A stretch of 64,000 bases of DNA from an uncultured Owenweeksia sp. (lineage in GTDB: Bacteria; Bacteroidota; Bacteroidia; Flavobacteriales; Schleiferiaceae): positions 1 to 64,000 of the forward strand of contig CAKZRR010000036.1 in assembly GCA_937146805.1 (NCBI GenBank), in the 5' to 3' direction. The notes beneath the pieces were generated by a model. That model was not told where the DNA came from, ran no database searches, and saw nothing but the letters and a program-made list of their open reading frames with translations. Shown here in pieces: positions 860 to 15,614 of the stretch. Positions within the stretch are counted from its first letter, which is position 1; each line of letters opens with the position of its first letter. The translations under genes were made by a program, and so were the position numbers.

Positions 860-1194
860 GTTGATTCAATTTAACAAATAGAATTCCAAGAGGCTCTACC
901 TTAAGGATGACTTAACCCAATTTACTCAAAAACTAAACGGCCCTAATCATCTTGCAAAGTAGGGCTTAATAATCAATACAGGTGTTATCTGAAGCATCTG
1001 AAACGCCATTTTTTTTAAGGTTTGAGATGTTTTAAGGATGTAATCCGAGTAAGCTTCTAACTCTATATGACCACGCTTAATTGCTTTAGGGTGCGAAATA
1101 TTAATTAACAGATTTCGTTTGATAAAACATAAACATAAAAAAAACGCTACTGGGTTAAACAGCTACTTTTATTCCATTCTTAAAATCAGGGATT
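860..1194. other. Intergenic region between divergent genes, nothing recognised
   Basis: This 335-base AT-rich stretch separates a minus-strand gene from the plus-strand TPR gene. No ORF with coding character, RNA gene or repeat was seen. A TACTTTTA resembling the Bacteroidetes -7 box lies about 25 bases before the TPR gene start, but I found no matching TTG element at the right distance. Confidence 0.4.
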
Positions 1195-4100
1195 ATGATG
1201 GTGTTTCGTCACCTTAGGGTACTGTTTAGCAGTGTGTTATTTTTAACTTCTATGGTTGCCATTGGGCAATCTAGTTTGGTGTCAGAAGATTTTTCTTCTC
1301 CATATCAAAAAGGCTTGGCCTTGTTTAAAAAGGGTCAGTATGGCAATTCGCAACGATTGATGGACGGAGTTGCCAACGAGGAATTTAACAATAGCAGAGA
1401 GGTAAGAGCTTCGGCAGCGTACTATGCAGCGTTATGTGCTATGCGCCTGTACAATGGAGATGCGGCCTCAAGAGTGGAGAAATTCGCGCAAAATTTTGAG
1501 TTAAGCCCTTTGGTTAATCAGCTGTATTTGGAATATGCTAATGCACGATTTAGTTTGAAAAAATATGCCGAAGCCTCTGTTTATTATGAAAAGGTAAATA
1601 CTTACCGTATTAACGAAGAACAAAAAAGCGAGTTTCAGTTTAAAGCGGCTTATGCTCATATGCACAACGGGCAAACTGAAAAGGCACGCGCGCTGTTCTT
1701 TGATTTAAAGGATAAAAACACTGAGTTTAGTAATTCGTCAAAATATTATTATGCGCACTTATTGTATGTAGATTCAAATTATACCGAGGCGCTAACTAAC
1801 TTTTTACCGCTGGTAGATGATGCTACTTTTGGCCCATTAATACCTTATTACTTAGCCCATATTTATTACAAACTGGAAAATTTTGATAAGCTGCTTGAAA
1901 TAGGTGAGGAGCTAGTGGAAGCGGCTACACCAACACGCGCGCCCGAAATTGCCAAGCTGGTTGCAGATGCTTTTTACAACCGAAATGATTTTGTGAATGC
2001 AGCCAAATACCTTGATTTATACAAGAGTAAGGGTGGTAAGCTTTCGCAAGATGACCACTTTCAAATAGGTTATGCGCACTACCAATCCAAAAATTACCAT
2101 GAGGCAATACAATCTTTCAATAAAATTGTAAAAGGTAAAAAGAGCCTTCGCCAATCGGCTTATTACCATTTGGGAGATTGCTATTTAAAAATAGATGACA
2201 AGCAGAAGGCCATTACAGCGTTTAAAGCGGCCTCGGAATTGAGTACGGATGAAGCCACACGCGAGGATGCCTATTTTAACTATGCCAAATTGGTTTACGA
2301 GTTTTCAGATCCTTATGAAGATGCCATAAGTACTTTGTCCTCTTATTTGGAGGAGTTTCCAGCTTCAACTCACAAAAAGGAAGTGCATCGTTACTTAGCC
2401 AACTTATACATAACCACTAAAGATTACGATAGAGCTTTATTGGCCATTCGGGAAACGGGTTTGGACTCTCCCGAGATGCAAGCGGCCTATCAAAAAATCT
2501 CCTTTTTTAGAGCTTCGGAACTGTTTAAAGCTTTGCGTTTTGTAGGTGCGCTCAATAAATACAAAGAGTCGTTGCGCTACCCGCTAAACAATGCCCTAGT
2601 GGCCTTGGCTAATTACTGGAGTGGTGAAAGTCACTATAGATTAGGTGATTACGAAAATGCCTTGGCTTCGTTTGAAAAGTTTAGAAGCACCAATGGTTCG
2701 TATAACATGAGCGAGTTCTCTTTATCGCACTATCAAACAGCTTATTGCCATTACAAAAAGTTTGAGTTTGATAATGCCGCAGCGCATTTTAGAGATTATG
2801 TAAAACATGGTAAAACCGCTGATCCAAGATTGCCAGATGCCTATTTGCGAATGGCCGATTGCTATATGCTTAAAGGAGACTATTTGGTGGCTGGCGAGTT
2901 TTACAGTAAGGCGCTTCAGGTGAAAACCAATGAACCGGATTATGCCTTATTTAAAAGTGGAGAATGTTTGGGTTTAGCAGGTAAAAAAGAGAAAAAAGTA
3001 ATTAAGCTACAGACTTTGTTGCGCGATTATCCTAACTCGGTGTATGCCGAAGAAGCCCAGTTTTTAATTGCAAACACGTATTTACAATTAGATGATAACC
3101 GAATGGCGGAATCTTCTTTTAATCAGTTTATACAGCAAAACCCAAAATCGAAGTGGGTGGCAAAAGCCAAGCTGCAAAAAGGGTTGGTGTACAGTAATAA
3201 TGACCAGAACGAAAAGGCTATTGCCGCTTTTAAGCTGGTGGTAAACGAGTATGCTGGTAGCGAAGAATCTATTGAAGCGGTGGGTTTAGCTAGATTGGTG
3301 TACGCCCGGATGAATAAAATTGATGACTATTTAGACTGGGTTGGGGATTTGAGTTTTGTAAACTTTAGCAAAGGAACGCTGGATTCCACCTCTTATAACA
3401 CCGCCTTTGACCAATACTCTACAGGAAACTGTGAAGGAGCCATTAGCGGTTTTGAAACCTACTTGAGGCGTTTTGAAAAAGGCTTATTTGTGTTAAAAGC
3501 CAATTACTATATGGCCGATTGTGCATTAAAAGCACAAAACGAGGAAATGGCAGCTGAGGCCTATCAAAATATATTGGATTCACCTCAAAATGAATACACT
3601 AAGGAAGCTACCCATTATTGGGCTGATAAGTATTATTACGAGAAAAACTATCCCAAGGCATTGGTTTTATATGATAACTTAACGCAATTGGTAAGTAGCA
3701 AAGCTCAAGGTTTAGCTGCGCAAACAGGCATTATGCGTTCGTCTTTAGCTTTAGGAGATACCAAAAAAGCCAGTGTATATGCGCAGCTTATTTTAGATTC
3801 TGAAATTTCGGATGACGCCTTAAAGCAAGAATGTGTAGGTGCCTTAGCTCAACTACAATTGGAAGAGGAAGATTATGAGGGAGCCATTGAAAATTTAGAC
3901 TGGTTAATAGCCAACACGGGAGGCGAAACCAAGGCCAAGGCTATGTATCAATTAGCGGAGGTACGCTTTAAGCAAAATTTATACGAAGCATCTACCCGTA
4001 TGGTGTATAAAATGATTGAGGAGTTGCCCGATAGAAAAGAATGGAAGTTAAAAGGCACCATTTTAATAGCCCGAAATTATTGGATGCAGGAAGATATTTT

Positions 4101-4323
4101 TCAAGCCAATTATGCTTTGGATTTTGTAATAGCGGCTGATTATAACGCAGAAATTACGCAAAATGCCAAAGATCTTAAATCGGAAATTGCCATGGCCGAA
4201 CAGCGTAAAGCACAAATGATGAAGCAAGAATTACAGCGTAAGTCTGATTCGTTAGACATGGACGCGGGAAATGGAATTCAAATTATTGATGAAAAGGAAG
4301 AGGTGCAAGACAGCCTTCGCTAA
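1195..4323 (+). CDS. Large secreted tetratricopeptide repeat (TPR) protein
   Basis: The 1042-residue protein has a signal peptide (about residues 1-25, ending in a GQ typical of flavobacterial exports). Helical TPR-like units then run almost the whole length, with recurring A-Y-Y and Y-x-x-A positions in 34-residue periods. A charged, probably coiled tail follows from about residue 1000 (MAEQRKAQMMKQELQ). TPR solenoids of this size act as periplasmic protein-binding scaffolds. The next gene, an outer-membrane beta-barrel, starts 9 bases downstream, so the two are almost certainly co-transcribed and probably function together. The role is unknown; a T9SS-type TPR protein such as PorW/SprE is an alternative, but I see no specific match. 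Confidence 0.85.
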   Translation: MMVFRHLRVLFSSVLFLTSMVAIGQSSLVSEDFSSPYQKGLALFKKGQYGNSQRLMDGVANEEFNNSREVRASAAYYAALCAMRLYNGDAASRVEKFAQNFELSPLVNQLYLEYANARFSLKKYAEASVYYEKVNTYRINEEQKSEFQFKAAYAHMHNGQTEKARALFFDLKDKNTEFSNSSKYYYAHLLYVDSNYTEALTNFLPLVDDATFGPLIPYYLAHIYYKLENFDKLLEIGEELVEAATPTRAPEIAKLVADAFYNRNDFVNAAKYLDLYKSKGGKLSQDDHFQIGYAHYQSKNYHEAIQSFNKIVKGKKSLRQSAYYHLGDCYLKIDDKQKAITAFKAASELSTDEATREDAYFNYAKLVYEFSDPYEDAISTLSSYLEEFPASTHKKEVHRYLANLYITTKDYDRALLAIRETGLDSPEMQAAYQKISFFRASELFKALRFVGALNKYKESLRYPLNNALVALANYWSGESHYRLGDYENALASFEKFRSTNGSYNMSEFSLSHYQTAYCHYKKFEFDNAAAHFRDYVKHGKTADPRLPDAYLRMADCYMLKGDYLVAGEFYSKALQVKTNEPDYALFKSGECLGLAGKKEKKVIKLQTLLRDYPNSVYAEEAQFLIANTYLQLDDNRMAESSFNQFIQQNPKSKWVAKAKLQKGLVYSNNDQNEKAIAAFKLVVNEYAGSEESIEAVGLARLVYARMNKIDDYLDWVGDLSFVNFSKGTLDSTSYNTAFDQYSTGNCEGAISGFETYLRRFEKGLFVLKANYYMADCALKAQNEEMAAEAYQNILDSPQNEYTKEATHYWADKYYYEKNYPKALVLYDNLTQLVSSKAQGLAAQTGIMRSSLALGDTKKASVYAQLILDSEISDDALKQECVGALAQLQLEEEDYEGAIENLDWLIANTGGETKAKAMYQLAEVRFKQNLYEASTRMVYKMIEELPDRKEWKLKGTILIARNYWMQEDIFQANYALDFVIAADYNAEITQNAKDLKSEIAMAEQRKAQMMKQELQRKSDSLDMDAGNGIQIIDEKEEVQDSLR

Positions 4324-4332
4324 AAAGATACT

Positions 4333-6048
4333 ATGAAATTTACAAAACAATTTTTAGGAGTACTATTGGTGATGGGAGCCACTGCTTGGGGGCAGAAAGG
4401 AGACCCTATTGGGCAGATTGAGCTTAGGGTAACCGATAAATACAAGGCGCAAGTAGGGGAGGCCACCAAGTATTCGGACATGCCGAAATTTGAAGATACC
4501 ACTACTACCAAATTGCGTGTGAACTATGGCATTAATAGCCAACCGGTTCCTATTCATTACAAACCAGAACCTATTAGTGCCGCACGTATTAGGATTGAAA
4601 GAGTTCCACAGCTATACAAAGGTATGGTGCGTGCGGGCTATGGTTTGTATAATAGTCCGTTTTTAGATGTGTATTGGAACAGCGGGCGTACTTCTAAAAT
4701 GAGCTATGGCTTTTGGGGCGAGCATTATTCATTTAGCAAAGGCGTAAAAGAAACGGTGTACGAAAAAAATGGGCTTAGCAATAATCAGTTAGGGGGCTAT
4801 TATAATCGCTTTTACAAGAATTACAGCCTACGTACCAAGGCGTTTGGCAAGTGGGATAAATACAGTTATTACGGAGTGGATAAGCTGCCTAATAAATCGG
4901 ATAGTTTGGGTATTCCGGAAGTTTTAGGTGACCCTGATTTTAACTGGTATCGACAGTATCAGGTAGAGGCTACCTTAAGCGAGCGAAATGCTAAAGACTT
5001 AGGTTGGCTAAGTGATTTAAGCTTTATTTATTATAATTTTTCGGATAAGATTGATAGTAAGGAAAACTTAGTGGATTTACATTCGGATTGGGCTCTACCG
5101 GCAGGTAAGTACCAATTAGATTTAGGGTTGGGGATTAACTATTTTGGAACCAGCTTTGATTCTATAGTAAAAGGAAATCAGTCGTATTTTACCTTTTTGG
5201 CCAACCCCAGTGTAAGCACCACGGTTAAAAACATGCTTTTCGATTTTGGTTTTAATTTATTCTTAACCAGCTACAAGGCCGATTGGGAAATTAACTCGCA
5301 AGGCAATGGATATTTTTTACCAGTAATAAAAATGCAAATACCTTTTGTACAGGATGTTATCACGCTTAAAGCGGGAATGAAGGGGGATTTAAAGCAGAAC
5401 TCGTACCGCCAAATAACCAAGGATAATAACTATGTGGTACCAGGTGACACCTTAAAGCCCACTCGAAATATTGATTTATACGTAGGTTTTCATGGTATTT
5501 TAAGTGCCAGTACTTCCTTTAATTTGATAGGAGGAATTACCTTTAATAAAGACATGGCCTTGTATTATCGTAACCCAATTTACCAGCGATTAGATAGTAT
5601 GGCGGTTACCCATTTAGATGTACGTTACAGCAACAATACCTCTTTTTATGTAAGAGGAGAACTGGCCACCAACATTAAAAATAACTTACAGCTAAATGTA
5701 TTTGGTGAGTTGAGAACCTTTGATGTAGATACGGAACTGGAAGCTTGGCATATGCCTGGGTTTACAGGAGGTATAAATGTGGATTATACGATCAAAGAAA
5801 AATTAAAGCTAAACAGCTCATGGGATTTTGTAGGCGCTAGAACGGCCTTTGCTTCGGATTTAAATCCCGATTTAGATAATGAATTACCGGCCTATTTAGA
5901 TGTGGGCTTAGGAGCCGAATACCTTTTTAATACACGCTTAAGTGCTTTTTTAAACGTAACCAATCTGCTTAACAATAAGTACGATATGTACTTGGGGTAC
6001 AAAGCACAAAGCATTAACTTTTTAATGGGCTTTACCTATAAGTTGTAA
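4333..6048 (+). CDS. Outer-membrane beta-barrel protein, TonB-receptor-like without plug
   Basis: The 571-residue product has a signal peptide (about 1-20). It then shows alternating hydrophobic/polar strands rich in Tyr, Phe, Trp and Asn turns, ending in an aromatic-rich C-terminal strand (FLMGFTYKL), as expected of an outer-membrane barrel. The C-terminal part (about 520-571, with LNVTNLLNNKYD) resembles the end of TonB-dependent receptors. At 571 residues it is shorter than true receptors, and I see neither a TonB box nor a plug domain at the N-terminus. It follows the TPR gene by 9 bases. It may form a pore or anchor together with that TPR protein; the substrate is unknown. Confidence 0.75.
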   Translation: MKFTKQFLGVLLVMGATAWGQKGDPIGQIELRVTDKYKAQVGEATKYSDMPKFEDTTTTKLRVNYGINSQPVPIHYKPEPISAARIRIERVPQLYKGMVRAGYGLYNSPFLDVYWNSGRTSKMSYGFWGEHYSFSKGVKETVYEKNGLSNNQLGGYYNRFYKNYSLRTKAFGKWDKYSYYGVDKLPNKSDSLGIPEVLGDPDFNWYRQYQVEATLSERNAKDLGWLSDLSFIYYNFSDKIDSKENLVDLHSDWALPAGKYQLDLGLGINYFGTSFDSIVKGNQSYFTFLANPSVSTTVKNMLFDFGFNLFLTSYKADWEINSQGNGYFLPVIKMQIPFVQDVITLKAGMKGDLKQNSYRQITKDNNYVVPGDTLKPTRNIDLYVGFHGILSASTSFNLIGGITFNKDMALYYRNPIYQRLDSMAVTHLDVRYSNNTSFYVRGELATNIKNNLQLNVFGELRTFDVDTELEAWHMPGFTGGINVDYTIKEKLKLNSSWDFVGARTAFASDLNPDLDNELPAYLDVGLGAEYLFNTRLSAFLNVTNLLNNKYDMYLGYKAQSINFLMGFTYKL

Positions 6049-6137
6049 TGGCTTGTCTACCTCGAATAGTGGTACTCAAATGAGTCGCTAATCAGAAGCT
6101 ATTATTTTTTAGTTCAATTATTTTGATAGCTTAATTT

Positions 6138-7436
6138 ATGAGGAGTTTAATTTTACTGTTCGGATTCTTAGGATTGTTTTCTTGTAAAAAAGACAAGAAA
6201 GAAACTCTAGCTATCGCTGGTCAGCCCAATATATTATTGATAATAGCTGATGATGTAGGTATCGATGCCAGCCCCGGTTATGCTGTGGGTAGTCAATTGC
6301 CAAAAATGCCGAATCTAGAAAAGTTAATGAGCGAAGGGTTGGTATTTGATAACGCTTGGTCGTTTCCAGTTTGCTCACCAACCCGTGCTTCCATTTTAAC
6401 CGGTAAGTATGGTGTGCATACAGGCGTATTAAACGCTACCAATGCCGCTACCATTGGCAACAACGAATTATCCATTCAGCGGTATTTGGATAATAATACT
6501 GGACAAGCATACGCCCATAGTATTTTTGGTAAATGGCATTTATCTAATAATGCCAATAGTCCAACTGCACTTGGAGTGGGCACTTATGCTGGTATTTTAC
6601 GAGGTGCGGTACCGGATTATTTTAATTGGACACTTACAAAAGATGGCAAAAGCAACATCAGTACGGAATACTGTACCAGCCAAATAACGGATATGGCGAT
6701 GGAGTGGATTGAAGCTCAAACCAAACCTTGGTTTTGCTGGCTTGGTTATACAGCAGCCCATACCCCCTTGCACTTACCTCCAGATTCAATGCACAGTCAA
6801 GGTGCTTTACCGAGCGATTCTAGCAGTGTCAACGCCAACCCTATACCGTATTTTTTGGCTATGATAGAATCGATTGACTTTGAACTTGGGCGAATTTTGA
6901 ATTCATTAAGTGCAACTGAAAGAGCCAATACTGTGGTAATTTATATTGGAGATAATGGAACCAGTCGACAAGTTTTACAAGGGCCTTATCGTCCGGCCCA
7001 AAGTAAAGGTAGCTTATATCAAGGGGGTATTCATGTGCCGTTGGTGGTTTCGGGTTATGGAGTAGAGCGAAAGGGTGAACGAGAAACGGCCTTGATAAAT
7101 TCTGCAGATTTGTTTACTACTATTTCGGAGATAGCTGGAGTAGAGACACCTGTATATGAAAACAGTTACTCATTTAAACCACTATTATATTCCGCTATAG
7201 CGGGAAAAAGAAAATACAATTACTCGGAAGTGTTAAGTAGTGATTTTACAAAATCGGGTTATACGATAAGAGATAGCCAATACAAGTTGATAGTGTTTGA
7301 TGATGGTATGAATGTGATGTACGACTTATTGGCGGATGCCTATGAATCTACCAATTTGCTAAACGGAACGTTAACAGCTGCTGAGAATGATGCTTTATTG
7401 GCTTTGCAGCAAGAAGCACAACTAATTAGAAATTAA
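6138..7436 (+). CDS. Sulfatase (arylsulfatase family S1), lipoprotein
   Basis: The 432-residue lipoprotein (lipobox LFSC, Cys at about 16) is a type I sulfatase. It has the N-terminal metal ligands (NILLIIADDVG), the sulfatase signature CSPTRASILTGKYG with Cys79 as the residue converted to formylglycine, GKWHL, an HTPLHLP segment and a DNG motif near residue 275. Such enzymes hydrolyse sulfate esters, in marine Bacteroidota often on algal polysaccharides. The substrate cannot be read here, and no glycoside hydrolase or SusCD pair is nearby, so this is not an obvious polysaccharide utilisation locus. Maturation needs a separate formylglycine-generating enzyme or anaerobic sulfatase-maturating enzyme, not in this window. 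It forms a pair with the YHYH gene 13 bases downstream. Confidence 0.9.
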   Translation: MRSLILLFGFLGLFSCKKDKKETLAIAGQPNILLIIADDVGIDASPGYAVGSQLPKMPNLEKLMSEGLVFDNAWSFPVCSPTRASILTGKYGVHTGVLNATNAATIGNNELSIQRYLDNNTGQAYAHSIFGKWHLSNNANSPTALGVGTYAGILRGAVPDYFNWTLTKDGKSNISTEYCTSQITDMAMEWIEAQTKPWFCWLGYTAAHTPLHLPPDSMHSQGALPSDSSSVNANPIPYFLAMIESIDFELGRILNSLSATERANTVVIYIGDNGTSRQVLQGPYRPAQSKGSLYQGGIHVPLVVSGYGVERKGERETALINSADLFTTISEIAGVETPVYENSYSFKPLLYSAIAGKRKYNYSEVLSSDFTKSGYTIRDSQYKLIVFDDGMNVMYDLLADAYESTNLLNGTLTAAENDALLALQQEAQLIRN

Positions 7437-7449
7437 TAAAAGGTACGAA

Positions 7450-8406
7450 ATGGGAGTTGGGAAGAAAACGCTAGTGGTACTGGTAGGGCTGGGTATTGTT
7501 GCAACCGCTTGTAAAAAGGATAAGGAAACAGAGGGCGAAAGTTGTACTAGCGATCAAAGTTTGGATGATAGTCGAGGCGTTTGTACCGAAACCTTAAGTT
7601 GGCAAAATGCTTTTTCGGAAAGCCAACAAGGAAACTTCAGGGTTATTAATGTTAATAGTATCCCGGTGCATAAGGTGGGTAAGTTTGGTCAAGGGACTGG
7701 TTCTTTAAACCCAAATGCTATTAGTGAGCAATCAGAAAGTTACAGTATTAGTATCAATCCATCGGAGGCTAGTCAATTTACACCCTTATTATTGACAACA
7801 GGAAGTACGGTAGGACCCCAATACTCGTTTGGAATTTTACTGAATGGTGTGGAATTAGATCCCGTAGCAGCCGAACCTTTTCCGCATACATCTCGTACCG
7901 ACCCAAATGTTAACTGGGAGTGGAATTTGGAGGCACTTAACGTAAATCTTGGTCTGGATTGCAATAATGCGCATGTACAGCCTAATGGTAAGTATCATTA
8001 CCATGGTAAGCCTACTCGGTTTTTAACAAGACTGGGTATTTCTGATTCTAAAATGAATTTAATTGGCTATGCTGCTGATGGGTTTCCCATCTATTATAAA
8101 TACGCCTTTGATAACGCCACAGATAGCACCTCTGCCGTTGAAACAATGAAAAGTAGTTATCAATTAAAGCAAGGCAATAGATCTGGTGATGGCTTAACCG
8201 CACCTTGTGGAGCATTTGATGGAATCTATTCTAATGATTATGAGTTTGTAGATGGCTTAGGTGATTTAGATGAAGCAAACGGAAGGAGTGGGGTAACTCC
8301 TGAGTTTCCAAATGGCACCTACTATTATGTTCTTACCGATGAGTTCCCTAGCATACCTCGTATGTTTAGAGGCAGTCCTTCGATTGATTTTAAAATTGGT
8401 CCTTAA
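7450..8406 (+). CDS. YHYH domain lipoprotein
   Basis: The 318-residue protein is a lipoprotein (ATAC lipobox, Cys about 21, followed by a KKDKE tether). It carries the signature of the YHYH family (NGKYHYHGKP at about residues 179-188), followed by a conserved GYAADGFPIYY segment and a C-terminal GTYYYVLTDEFP block. YHYH proteins are widespread in marine bacteria and lack a settled biochemical function; the His-rich motif suggests metal binding (inference). It follows the sulfatase by 13 bases and both are surface-type lipoproteins, so a joint role is likely. Its stop TAA shares the palindrome TTAA with the stop of the convergent hydrolase gene. Confidence 0.85.
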   Translation: MGVGKKTLVVLVGLGIVATACKKDKETEGESCTSDQSLDDSRGVCTETLSWQNAFSESQQGNFRVINVNSIPVHKVGKFGQGTGSLNPNAISEQSESYSISINPSEASQFTPLLLTTGSTVGPQYSFGILLNGVELDPVAAEPFPHTSRTDPNVNWEWNLEALNVNLGLDCNNAHVQPNGKYHYHGKPTRFLTRLGISDSKMNLIGYAADGFPIYYKYAFDNATDSTSAVETMKSSYQLKQGNRSGDGLTAPCGAFDGIYSNDYEFVDGLGDLDEANGRSGVTPEFPNGTYYYVLTDEFPSIPRMFRGSPSIDFKIGP

Positions 8407-10595: not shown

Positions 10596-12800
10596 ATGTT
10601 TGTAAAAAGAGTAGGAATGCTTGCCTTGTTGAGCGTGTTGTTAATCAACAATGGAATGGCTAAAGATGGTATGTGGATACCTTATCTTATTAGTCAGCTT
10701 AATGAAGGTGAAATGCAAGATATGGGCATGCAGCTTAGCGCGGAAGATATATATAGCGTTAATCATTCATCATTAAAGGATGCCATTGTGCACTTTAATG
10801 GGGGCTGCACAGCCCAATTAATTAGTGCCAAAGGTTTATTGCTTACCAATCATCATTGTGGTTACAGTCAAATACAATCTCACAGTAGTGTAGAAAAAGA
10901 TTATTTGAAAAACGGCTTTTGGGCCATGAACGGCAAAGAAGAGTTGCGCAATAAAAAGCTCACAGCGGCTATTGTAAAATACATGAAAGATGTAACCAAC
11001 GAAGTGTTGGAAGGGGTAAATAGTCAAATGAGTCCAGAAGAGCGCGCTGCGAGTGTGGCTGCTAATATTAAAAAGTTAATAGCGGCAAATCAGGATGAAT
11101 ATAAATTAGAAGTAAAGCCATTCTTTTTTGGGAACCAATATATTTTGATTGCCAAGGAGGTTTTTAGAGATGTACGTTTGGTGGGTGCACCACCTTCATC
11201 TATAGGCAAGTACGGTTCAGATACGGATAACTGGGTATGGCCTCGTCATACGGGTGATTTCTCTATTTTTAGAGTGTATGCCAATGCTCAAAATAAGCCA
11301 GCAGATGTATCAGATGATAATGTGCCTTATACACCCAACCAGTTTTTAAAAGTGAATATTGGAGGCGTACAAAATGGAGACTTTACTATGGTGTATGGTT
11401 TTCCGGGTACTACGGACGAATATTTACCTTCTAACGAGGTGCAAAATATTATGGAAGTGTATGACCCTATGCGTATTGCCATACGTGATGAGATTATTGC
11501 TGTATTAGACAAAAAGATGCGTACAGATGATGCAACGCGTATAAAGTATGCTTCTAAATATGCGCGAGTAAGCAATGCTTGGAAAAAGTGGAGTGGTGAG
11601 ATAGTAGGTTTAAGAGCCACAAGAGCATTGGAGAAAAAGCAAGCTTTTGAAGCGGAATTTGAAAAGGCAATCTTGGCCGATCCTAAACTAAGTGCCCAAT
11701 ATCAATCGGTGCTACCCAACTTAAAAAACATGTATGAAGATAGAAAGGAGATTTTAACAGAACGTCATGCTTTTGTAGAAGGTCTTTACTTTGGTGTAGA
11801 AATGTTTAGAAATATGTTAAGCTATCGCACACTGGTAGAAGCCTACGAAAGTAGCGATAGTACTTTTGAAGAAATGGCCGCTAATAAAGCAAAGGCTTTA
11901 AGTGGTTTTTATAAAAATTACGATTCGGAGTTAGACGAGAAGGTAATGGAAAAGTTGTTGCCTATTTATTTGAGCTATATTAATCATCAGCCGCTTCCGG
12001 ATATTATTGATAAACTAAAGAAGGGGACTAGTGAAGAGGTAAGTCTTTATGTTAAGGAGGTGTTTAGCACCATGGCTTTAAGCAATAGCGAAGATTGGAT
12101 TAATCTGTTGCAAAACAAACCTAGTAAAGCGATTAAGATACTTAAGAATTCAGCAGCCTATAATTTTAGTACGGCTGCTTTTAACCATTTTGTTGAGGTA
12201 ATTAATCCTGAATATCGCAGTTATATGGGACTTATAGAAAATAGCCAGCGTGAGTATTTAAAGGCTTTGCAAGCCGTATTGCCTAATAAGCGATTTTATC
12301 CAGATGCCAACAGCACACTGCGGGTATCTTACGGAAAAGTAGATGGTTACCAAGCTCGTGATGCGGTAAATTACTTTTCGCACACTTACTTGGAGGGAGT
12401 GGTGGCTAAGTATAAACCAGCTGATTATGAGTTTGATTTACCTCAAAAATTAATTGATTTGTACGAAACAAAGGATTACGGTCCTTATGCCGAAAAAGGT
12501 AAAATGCCGGTTTGTTTTATTGCATCCAACCATACTACTGGGGGCAACTCAGGCAGCCCCGTGCTTAATGCAAAAGGTGAATTAATAGGTTTAAACTTTG
12601 ATAGAACCTGGGAAGGCACCATGAGTGATTACAATTTTGACGAAAAAAGGTGCCGAAATATTATGGTAGACCTACGTTATGTACTTTTTATAGTAGATAA
12701 ATTTGCAGGAGCCGGTTACCTGGTGAATGAGATGGAACTGGTGAGTGATAGAGCTACCTTGGTAGAAGAAAAAGCTCCAGCCTTAGAGATGGCGCAATAG
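10596..12800 (+). CDS. S46 family dipeptidyl-peptidase, DPP11-like
   Basis: The 734-residue secreted serine peptidase of family S46 has a signal peptide (about 1-22) and the catalytic His in LLTNHHCGY (His86/87). The serine is in GGNSGSP (Ser652). The specificity residue region NFDRTWEGTMSD has Arg670. In the family, Arg at this place marks DPP11, which releases Asp/Glu-containing dipeptides, whereas DPP7 has Gly. These enzymes act in the periplasm on oligopeptides, feeding amino-acid catabolism. The gene stands alone and ends just before a strong bidirectional terminator. Confidence 0.93.
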   Translation: MFVKRVGMLALLSVLLINNGMAKDGMWIPYLISQLNEGEMQDMGMQLSAEDIYSVNHSSLKDAIVHFNGGCTAQLISAKGLLLTNHHCGYSQIQSHSSVEKDYLKNGFWAMNGKEELRNKKLTAAIVKYMKDVTNEVLEGVNSQMSPEERAASVAANIKKLIAANQDEYKLEVKPFFFGNQYILIAKEVFRDVRLVGAPPSSIGKYGSDTDNWVWPRHTGDFSIFRVYANAQNKPADVSDDNVPYTPNQFLKVNIGGVQNGDFTMVYGFPGTTDEYLPSNEVQNIMEVYDPMRIAIRDEIIAVLDKKMRTDDATRIKYASKYARVSNAWKKWSGEIVGLRATRALEKKQAFEAEFEKAILADPKLSAQYQSVLPNLKNMYEDRKEILTERHAFVEGLYFGVEMFRNMLSYRTLVEAYESSDSTFEEMAANKAKALSGFYKNYDSELDEKVMEKLLPIYLSYINHQPLPDIIDKLKKGTSEEVSLYVKEVFSTMALSNSEDWINLLQNKPSKAIKILKNSAAYNFSTAAFNHFVEVINPEYRSYMGLIENSQREYLKALQAVLPNKRFYPDANSTLRVSYGKVDGYQARDAVNYFSHTYLEGVVAKYKPADYEFDLPQKLIDLYETKDYGPYAEKGKMPVCFIASNHTTGGNSGSPVLNAKGELIGLNFDRTWEGTMSDYNFDEKRCRNIMVDLRYVLFIVDKFAGAGYLVNEMELVSDRATLVEEKAPALEMAQ

Positions 12801-14183: not shown

Positions 14184-15614
14184 TTACTGTAGCGTTAATT
14201 TTTTTCTAAGATCTTCTACATAGTTCTTAAAGCGTTTGTCGGTTTCAGCAAGGTTGTTTACCGTACGGCAAGCATGCAAAACTGTTGCGTGATCTTTATT
14301 ACCACATTGGGCACCAATGCTAGCCAAAGAGGCTTTGGTTAATTGTTTAGAAAAATACATTGCCAACTGGCGTGCTTGTACAATTTCTCTTTTCCTTGTG
14401 GGCGATTTCAGCAAATCAATAGGCATGTCAAAATAATCACAAACCACTTTTTGTATGTAGTCTATCGATATTTCGCGTGTGGTATTTTTAACAAATTTGT
14501 CAATCATTTGCTTGGCCAACTCAACTGTAATTTTCTTTTTGTTGAGTGATGACTGTGCTAACAACGAAATTAAGGCACCTTCTAGTTCACGCACATTTGA
14601 ATTTATGCTGTAGGCCAAGTATTCAATAACATCCAATGGCATTTCCACACCATCATTGTATAATTTTTGGTTTAGAATAGCAATACGTGTCTCTAAATCA
14701 GGAACTTGTAAGTCTGCGCTTAACCCCCATTTAAAGCGAGAAAGTAAGCGTTGTTCCACACCTTGTAAATCAACAGGGGCTCTATCAGAAGTTAAAATTA
14801 CCTGCTTGCCGTGTTGGTGTAGGTGATTAAATACTTCAAAGAAAACATCTTGTGTCTTTTCCTTTCCAGCAAAAGAATGAACGTCATCCATAATAAGCAC
14901 ATCTATCATTTGATAAAAATGCACAAAATCGTTTTTGGTATTGTTTCTAATGGCATCTATAAACTGCTGCGTAAATTTTTCAGCAGAAACATAGAGCACC
15001 GTTTTTTCAGGATACTTGTCCTTAATTTCAATACCAATTGAGTGGGCCAAATGCGTTTTTCCTAATCCATTACCACCATAAATTAATAAGGGGTTAAAGG
15101 ATGTACCTCCAGGCTTGTTGCTTACTGCAAAACCAGCCGAACGGGCTAATCGGTTGCAATCGCCTTCTACAAAGTTATCAAAGGTGTAGTTAGGATTTAG
15201 CTGAGACTCAACATGAACCTTGCGTAAACCTGGAATGATAAAAGGGTTTTTAACACCTTTTTCACTTAAATCTACGGGCATATTTACCTTTGGGTTTTTA
15301 ATAGGGCCTCTATTACGACTAGGAATTTTTACCGTGTAGGGAGTTGCGTTACCATAGGTGTTCTCCATAACAATGGAGTAAACCAGTTTAGCATCTTCGC
15401 CTAATTCGCGAGTAATGGCACTTTTTAATAACTTAATGTAATTTTCTTCCAACCACTCGTAAAAAAACTTACTAGGCACTTGAATGCTAAGCACATTTTC
15501 TTTGAGTTTAAGAGGTACAATAGGAAGAAACCATGTTTTAAAACTCTGGGCAGGAATGTTATCCTTGATATAATCGATACAATTGTCCCAAACAGCTTTA
15601 GCAGTTAATTCCAT
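14184..15614 (-). CDS. dnaA: Chromosomal replication initiator DnaA
   Basis: The 476-residue initiator shows all four domains. Domain I (about 1-80, WDNCIDYIKDNI...SFKTWFLPI) is followed by a short linker. The AAA+ domain has Walker A GGNGLGKTHL (Lys186) and Walker B VLIMDDVH. The C-terminal DNA-binding domain carries the DnaA signature CGNKDHATVLHACRTV (about 440-455). It binds DnaA boxes and opens oriC in an ATP-dependent way. A perfect DnaA box lies about 85 bases upstream, consistent with autoregulation or a nearby origin. Neighbours (thioesterase, phosphatase, methyltransferase) are all housekeeping. Confidence 0.98.
   Translation of the reverse strand: MELTAKAVWDNCIDYIKDNIPAQSFKTWFLPIVPLKLKENVLSIQVPSKFFYEWLEENYIKLLKSAITRELGEDAKLVYSIVMENTYGNATPYTVKIPSRNRGPIKNPKVNMPVDLSEKGVKNPFIIPGLRKVHVESQLNPNYTFDNFVEGDCNRLARSAGFAVSNKPGGTSFNPLLIYGGNGLGKTHLAHSIGIEIKDKYPEKTVLYVSAEKFTQQFIDAIRNNTKNDFVHFYQMIDVLIMDDVHSFAGKEKTQDVFFEVFNHLHQHGKQVILTSDRAPVDLQGVEQRLLSRFKWGLSADLQVPDLETRIAILNQKLYNDGVEMPLDVIEYLAYSINSNVRELEGALISLLAQSSLNKKKITVELAKQMIDKFVKNTTREISIDYIQKVVCDYFDMPIDLLKSPTRKREIVQARQLAMYFSKQLTKASLASIGAQCGNKDHATVLHACRTVNNLAETDKRFKNYVEDLRKKLTLQ

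Follow-up and report, generated by a model that had tools for sequence, protein, structure and literature searches.

What does an exported tetratricopeptide repeat (TPR) protein do in the company of an outer-membrane barrel that has no plug? The question is raised by two genes near the start of a 64,000-nucleotide stretch of DNA, here called the window, from an uncultured Owenweeksia sp. of the Flavobacteriales (Bacteroidota; contig CAKZRR010000036.1, positions 1 to 64,000). A preliminary description, made from the letters alone, had recognised a 1042-residue exported TPR solenoid and a 571-residue barrel encoded 9 bases apart, and the open reading frames (ORFs) and TPR families agree with that outline. 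It also knew of no function assigned to the pair, and searches of an open-licence library showed no paper that describes it.

Comparison across the phylum indicates that the TPR gene and the barrel gene are a real, widespread two-gene unit, and that the pair is very probably coupled to a dedicated TolQR/TonB-like motor. From this the proposal is drawn that the pair makes up the end of a Tol/Ton-type machine that lies in the outer membrane and periplasm, a machine driven by the proton-motive force and having a Tol-Pal-like role; taken as a whole statement this is a nearly balanced call that leans slightly towards doubt. In what follows, genomes, loci, contigs and families are denoted where necessary by G, L, C and f numbers.

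Conservation and joint loss of the pair

A search with the barrel sequence of the window matched 52 of 60 genomes, the source genome included. The eight without a match to this single sequence, none of which was retested with a profile, all belong to the same order, seven being of 1.5-2.1 Mb and one of 0.3 Mb. All 20 loci that were fetched have a TPR homologue 5' of the barrel, and the two genes adjoin except at L021, where one ORF stands between them. When a barrel profile was run against 296 genomes of the phylum, each of the 72 genomes other than the source that belong to its order and class (presumably Bacteroidia) was matched, G324 weakly. A TPR profile gave full-length matches in 71 of the 72 (E<=1.2e-188), one per genome in 70 of them, and none in G324. 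In 70 of the 71 the barrel gene lies 3' of the TPR gene and in the same orientation, at a distance of up to 400 bases in 56 genomes and of up to 1.15 kb in 14. In G109 the TPR and barrel matches are 188 kb apart (C1:100856 and 291976).

A second draw of 197 class genomes, again with the source genome, contained the TPR gene in 189, usually as one copy. Absence within the class was scored as no match at E<=1e-20; outside the class, where 80 of 223 such genomes were searched, it was scored as no match better than 2.5e-19. Nine genomes of the two draws are TPR-less, and a check of 28 hand-chosen genomes found the barrel also missing from seven of them (G371, G382, G414, G440, G483, G504 and G324), which show at best a partial barrel cross-match with E of at least 9e-11. 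The other two are G416, which keeps a divergent barrel (2.3e-13, in a 563-aa frame), and G377, an assembly of 460 contigs that holds a barrel fragment. Nearly always paired and mostly lost jointly, the two genes do not occur independently in most genomes, and their conserved pairing speaks for a periplasm/outer-membrane complex, which the preliminary description had suggested and which remains the natural reading.

The same breadth of distribution bears on two other explanations. The reading as a component of the type IX secretion system (T9SS) has in its favour that SprA of that system is almost as common as the pair (191 of the 197 class genomes) and that the TPR protein weakly matches the PorW/SprE model (53 of the 250 bits needed). 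Yet 184 of these genomes have both the TPR gene and SprA, five the TPR gene only, seven SprA only and one neither (Fisher p=0.22), and SprA is found in 14 of the 20 TPR-less genomes of the 80-genome set described below for TolR. Because SprA and the TPR gene are lost independently, the link to T9SS and gliding that the preliminary description had raised is unsupported, and the pair is hardly credible as a part of that system. The SprA match of G135 lies within a 6523-residue open frame, the usual length being 2300-2700.

An outer-membrane biogenesis factor, that is, a partner of the beta-barrel assembly machinery (BAM) or of lipopolysaccharide or lipid transport, would likewise be widespread and located in the envelope and could be made of TPR and barrel parts, and in one genome LpxB lies upstream of the pair on the other strand (L022). 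Loss of the pair in several lineages runs counter to an essential core step, however, and the subunits of the F. johnsoniae BAM complex that are named in the available excerpt of its description are BamA, BamD, BamG, BamH, BamM and BamP, neither protein of the pair being among them; a biogenesis role is accordingly judged quite improbable. Identity of the barrel with BamG itself was also considered and dropped, BamG being given in the available excerpt as a 14-strand FadL relative and the barrel matching TonB-dependent receptors.

A dedicated TolQ-TolR-TonB-like motor

The motor escaped the preliminary description because its co-inheritance and linkage with the pair are visible only in other genomes. 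In lineages outside Flavobacteriales, recurrent genes often lie 3' of the barrel. At L106 (G061) the order is TPR, barrel, an HU-CCDC81-like gene (below the Pfam cut-off), TolQ, TolR, a TonB-like gene and a FolC-like gene, with Pfam matches to MotA_ExbB (5.5e-22), ExbD (2.5e-23) and TonB_C (8e-4); the last is below its cut-off, as is TonB_C in L104 (5e-5). In several genomes the protein encoded between barrel and motor or transducer has an HU-CCDC81 domain, a SPOR domain or both. L104 and L096 have SPOR matches over the cut-off and L091, L122 and L124 weak ones; in L106 none is seen. SPOR domains mark septal peptidoglycan, and a SPOR-type protein in the operon points to the cell wall. In G163 the barrel stands with a SPOR protein and the motor, and the TPR gene is about 970 kb off (L103, L104).

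Dedicated and generic motors were told apart by profiles built from the linked operons. In a scan for ExbD in 25 hand-chosen genomes, in which a part of the ExbD places was fetched, dedicated TolR proteins (about 130 aa) scored 84-119 bits and generic ExbD proteins at most 50, or at most 58 in a further set of loci; dedicated TolQ scored 187-280 bits and generic TolQ up to 192, and because these ranges overlap TolR alone was used to separate the motor types. Among 16 dedicated-motor loci a FolC-like match is present in 10 and a TonB-like match in 13. The source genome of the window has TolQ, TolR, TonB-like and FolC-like genes on contig C17, at about 243.5-246.7 kb on the minus strand (L109). 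In six TPR-less genomes (G324, G483, G504, G382, G414 and G440) every ExbD place found is generic and none has a TonB-like match, and in G371 the same scan found no ExbD at all.

Over a hand-chosen set of 80 genomes, enriched for TPR-less ones (20), TolR profile scores leave a gap between 52 genomes at >=81.6 bits and 28 at <=62.7. Of the 60 TPR-positive genomes 51 have dedicated TolR, and of the 20 TPR-negative ones a single one has it (Fisher p=1e-10); within the class the proportions are 43 of 44 and 1 of 5, respectively (p=1e-4). The units counted are genomes rather than independent events, and the p values carry no phylogeny correction. The 19 genomes that have neither are spread over ten families. 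Some TPR-positive calls in the set are weak, namely G263 (2e-20), G385 (1.5e-21) and, at 1e-25 to 1e-36, G467, G488, G219, G391, G454 and G330. As to gene order, 47 genomes with both places known were compared, and in 11 of them dedicated TolR lies 3.3-5.1 kb 3' of the TPR gene in the same orientation, where 0.05 would be expected, 15 of the TolR places in this count being taken from the ExbD scan and not from the TolR profile; when five unlinked genomes (G002, G017, G030, G043 and G461) are added, the figure is 11 of 52 with about 0.06 expected.

A different operon, of the order ExbB-ExbD-ExbD followed by a gene for a 330-340 aa protein, is found in TPR-less members of families f29 and f42 (L152, L153, L159 and L160). 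It is flanked by a gene for a protein of about 800-1280 aa and by a frame of 1300-1800 aa that mostly runs off the stretch; the large protein beside the operon of L152 is TPR-like, with a weak TPR_Slam match below the cut-off.

The barrel and its N-terminus

At E<=1 the barrel has zero Pfam matches, and so no plug model is matched. Its AlphaFold2 (AF2) model, built from six sequences, is all-beta, with 20 strands of >=6 residues at a mean pLDDT (the program's own per-residue confidence score) of 50. The last 40 residues are unresolved in the model and could hold two more strands, which would probably bring the barrel to 22. All 50 of the Foldseek matches listed are TonB-dependent receptors, with PfeA at the top (E 2.8e-10), and VIA aligns residues 97-570 with FhuA, Fiu and FrpB at Z 17-18, the best match reaching Z 18.0 over 390 aligned residues for a model of pLDDT 50. 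TOM40 and VDAC barrels come close to these VIA scores, over shorter stretches, and for that reason the strand number is given as probable.

Between the signal peptide and the first strand there are about 77 residues, for which the model has no structure. This segment, residues 21-97, is too short for a plug domain, and the barrel is plugless, as the preliminary description had it. The segment is conserved, Y37, A44, K46, P51, D55 and Y65 being invariant in all nine rows of alignment A2. As modelled, the barrel resembles a descendant of a TonB-dependent receptor from which the plug has been lost. A PDB sequence search with the barrel gave nothing convincing (best E 0.089), and a scan of viral contigs turned up no relatives.

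The preliminary description had also held that the barrel is without a TonB box, and this is now doubtful. Many barrel homologues have a short E/D-[IVLF]-x-[IV] strand right after the signal peptide, in the window GQIELRVTDKYKA, which we take to be like a TonB box. The mature N-terminus contains IELRVTDKYKA in the window and EITVVKEY or EIEIRG elsewhere, and distant members have PEVIVTGRET, PEFVITGK or PDIVISGTE. Of the barrel sequences, 14 of the 20 from Flavobacteriales and 15 of the 21 from elsewhere show the pattern [ED][IVLF]x[IV], against 4.3 per set in shuffles, this being a pattern that was chosen after inspection of all 41 segments, so that the set of 21 is not blind; it is also found in about one fifth of equal-length windows of the barrel. 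An earlier TonB-box pattern with a different offset gave no excess (16 of 41, with 14.1 expected). Because the pattern was written after the segments had been seen and the first one was null, the TonB-box-like character of the N-terminus is suggestive only.

A receptor-type barrel, a TonB-box-like end and a motor of its own are also what a TonB-driven transporter would possess, one in which the TPR protein gates the plugless barrel and a single conserved substrate is imported or exported by the power of the dedicated motor. Use of a TonB-dependent transporter for protein secretion has a precedent in Oar of M. xanthus, according to the available part of PMC6434023. Against such a transporter stand the near-universal presence of the pair in the class (189 of 197 genomes), usually in one copy, the recurrent neighbours, among which no substrate gene was recognised, and the SPOR-type protein with its indication of the cell wall. 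The transporter explanation is therefore considered unlikely, if by no means negligible.

The TPR solenoid

At E<=1 the TPR protein matches 21 Pfam families, most of them of TPR or TPR-like type, along its full length. AF2 models it as a single solenoid with 53 helices (mean pLDDT 83), and a fold search with this model retrieves generic TPR solenoids. It scores 151.7 bits with the NCBIfam model tol_pal_ybgF (TIGR02795; cut-off 90.1), a value qualified by the cross-matching of TPR models. PF16331, the TolA-binding trimerisation domain of CpoB/YbgF, is not among its Pfam families.

Slam consists of a periplasmic TPR part and an outer-membrane barrel. The same general parts are present here in two genes, which brings up a surface-lipoprotein exporter that would be a split analogue of Slam. 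Such an exporter would answer a question raised in PMC12578637, the available part of which describes the surface-lipoprotein route of Bacteroidota as unresolved and B. thetaiotaomicron as having no Slam. Neither protein has a Slam model (SlipAM barrel or Slam TPR) among its Pfam matches, however, and the numbers of SusD-like proteins do not follow the pair, G324 being pair-less with 32 SusD-like matches and the source genome of the window having the pair and no PF14322 match. Because of the SusD numbers this explanation was dropped, and it is held to be very improbable.

A proposed Tol-Pal-like role

How, then, might pair and motor work together? In the proposed machine a dedicated inner-membrane TolQ-TolR motor, powered by the proton-motive force, would drive a TonB/TolA-like transducer, which would pull on the TonB-box-like N-terminus of the plugless, probably 22-strand barrel. 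The TPR solenoid would bind the periplasmic side of the barrel and/or the transducer, as CpoB binds TolA. We know of no other bacteria with an architecture in which a motor pulls directly on an outer-membrane barrel. The purpose would be to tie outer membrane and cell wall together and to aid constriction at division. Such a Tol-Pal-like role is the likeliest purpose of the pair, though an unproven one; the physical contacts, the transmission of force and the part in cell division are what we infer for it.

Several findings favour this role. The TPR protein is above the YbgF/CpoB cut-off, as described, and the HU/SPOR-type protein is encoded between barrel and motor or transducer in several genomes. 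An FtsE-like gene stands beside the pair in 18 of 23 Flavobacteriales loci, two of which (L016 and L086) coincide, the window being without it; the four such neighbours that were scanned have FtsE as their best match, below its cut-off. Three pair-less genomes of family f31 (G069, G108 and G096) carry the canonical set of TolQ, TolR, TolA, TolB, Pal and CpoB (L149, L150 and L151, respectively). Besides TolB, their operons encode a short CpoB and two lipoproteins resembling Pal, and that of L149 contains one more ORF; the operons were identified by Pfam in L149 (TolB_N 3e-10, OmpA 9.6e-19) and by phmmer in L150 and L151. We infer that f31 is Chlorobiaceae; Chlorobi are among the phyla with tol-pal in the available part of PMC7391070. 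For Bacteroidetes, the available part of a 2025 survey (PMC12204202) states that no tol-pal loci are identifiable, proposes PorE as a tether and expects other systems, and it does not describe the pair.

A number of observations weigh against the proposed machine, both in its composition and in the coherence of its parts. A phmmer search with an f31 TolB against 965 ORFs of the pair and motor loci and against further loci did not find TolB beside the pair or the motor, the matches being confined to the three f31 loci. Nor is there a Pal beside the pair or the dedicated motor: outside f31 four ORFs with Pal/OmpA domains were found at E<1e-3 (L090, L098, L102 and L128), and none adjoins either. 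The barrel model is poor, with its pLDDT of 50, and SPOR exceeds the Pfam cut-off in only two of the six proteins scanned. In the source genome of the window and the other Flavobacteriales examined, pair and motor are at separate loci, and the source genome's transducer is without Pfam TonB_C and is matched only by the local profile, at 58 bits; three of the 16 dedicated loci (G066, G461 and G128) lack a match to the TonB-like profile. The parts do not always travel together, either. G497 has the TPR gene (1.9e-114) with no barrel match at 1e-5, G391 has a partial TPR gene and a barrel only as a cross-match, and the fragmented G377 has dedicated TolR without TPR. By the profile, nine TPR-positive genomes are without dedicated TolR (G049, G263, G219, G330, G151, G111, G068, G247 and G083); of these, G247 may have had the motor itself exchanged, because its pair is still followed by a TonB-like gene and by one from the SPOR-protein cluster (L094). 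Finally, several lineages live without the pair and the dedicated motor.

The unit thus falls outside Tol-Pal proper, yet it may work like Tol-Pal. In Proteobacteria, Tol-Pal runs outer-membrane constriction and wall tethering at division. The pair, which is found throughout most of the class and is tied to the motor by joint loss and gene order, is a testable candidate for Tol-Pal's place. It is possible, if rather doubtful, that it is the missing Bacteroidota equivalent, in which barrel and TPR protein replace Pal, TolB and CpoB and a TolQRA-type motor pulls the barrel at the division site. If the proposal is true, a barrel of the TonB-dependent receptor type has been converted from a transporter to a mechanical anchor, which would also explain why a separate TolQR-type motor is kept beside generic ExbBD sets.

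Features of the pair and its surroundings

Coordinates of the two genes and their parts in the window are collected below.

Table 1. Positions of the TPR gene, the barrel gene and their parts in the window
Feature	Position	Strand	Basis
Periplasmic TPR solenoid, 1042 aa	1195..4323	+	ORF, TPR families, AF2 model
Probable Sec signal peptide of TPR protein, residues 1-24 before Q25	1195..1266	+	Eye reading of sequence
Plugless TonB-dependent-receptor-like outer-membrane barrel, 571 aa	4333..6048	+	ORF, low-confidence AF2 model, Foldseek and VIA
Probable Sec signal peptide of barrel, residues 1-20 before Q21	4333..4392	+	Eye reading of sequence
Conserved N-terminal periplasmic segment of barrel, residues 21-97	4393..4623	+	Conserved alignment columns
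TonB-box-like segment IELRVTDKYK, residues 29-38, near mature N-terminus of barrel	4417..4446	+	Motif enrichment
Beta-barrel domain, residues 98-571	4624..6045	+	AF2 strand list; aligned range 97-570

The signal peptides of both proteins were called by eye, and by eye neither N-terminus has a lipobox. Q25 of the TPR protein is invariant in alignment A3 and Q21 of the barrel in alignment A1; each alignment contains the window and 18 of the 20 fetched loci, those left out being L014, in which the TPR gene is cut by the contig end, and L027, which is near L023. A terminator and promoter scan of positions 860-6400 gave fewer sites than shuffled sequence.

On the same strand after the pair (6138-8406) are genes for a sulfatase (432 aa) and a YHYH-domain protein (318 aa), which are absent from the recurrent neighbours in relatives. 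On the other side, a divergent 242-aa ORF of no Pfam family occupies 131-859 on the minus strand, the place where many relatives carry the FtsE-like gene. Farther downstream lie a gene for a Dpp7-like peptidase, below the family cut-off (10596-12800), and DnaA (14184-15614), with 16S rRNA methyltransferase-like and low-molecular-weight phosphatase-like genes between them.

Comparison with known systems

With Tol-Pal the unit shares a TolQ/TolR-type motor and a dedicated TonB/TolA-like transducer that can stand in one operon with it, a TPR protein resembling CpoB, and a SPOR-type neighbour; it differs in that a large barrel fills the outer-membrane place. The TPR protein differs from CpoB in size, having about 1000 residues against 250-280. 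TonB-dependent receptors have in common with the barrel, as modelled, the fold over residues 98-570 and perhaps, in its TonB-box-like N-terminus, a TonB box, whereas the barrel of the pair has no plug, has a constant TPR partner and usually occurs as one copy per genome. Slam is likewise built of a periplasmic TPR part and an outer-membrane barrel, but here these are two genes, with no match to a Slam model and no relation to the number of SusD-like proteins. PorE, as far as the available part of PMC12204202 describes it, has been proposed for Tol-Pal's place in the same phylum and also contains TPR, but it is a single lipoprotein with TPR, propeller and OmpA-like parts, whereas the pair joins a TPR protein without a lipobox to an integral barrel and comes with a motor.

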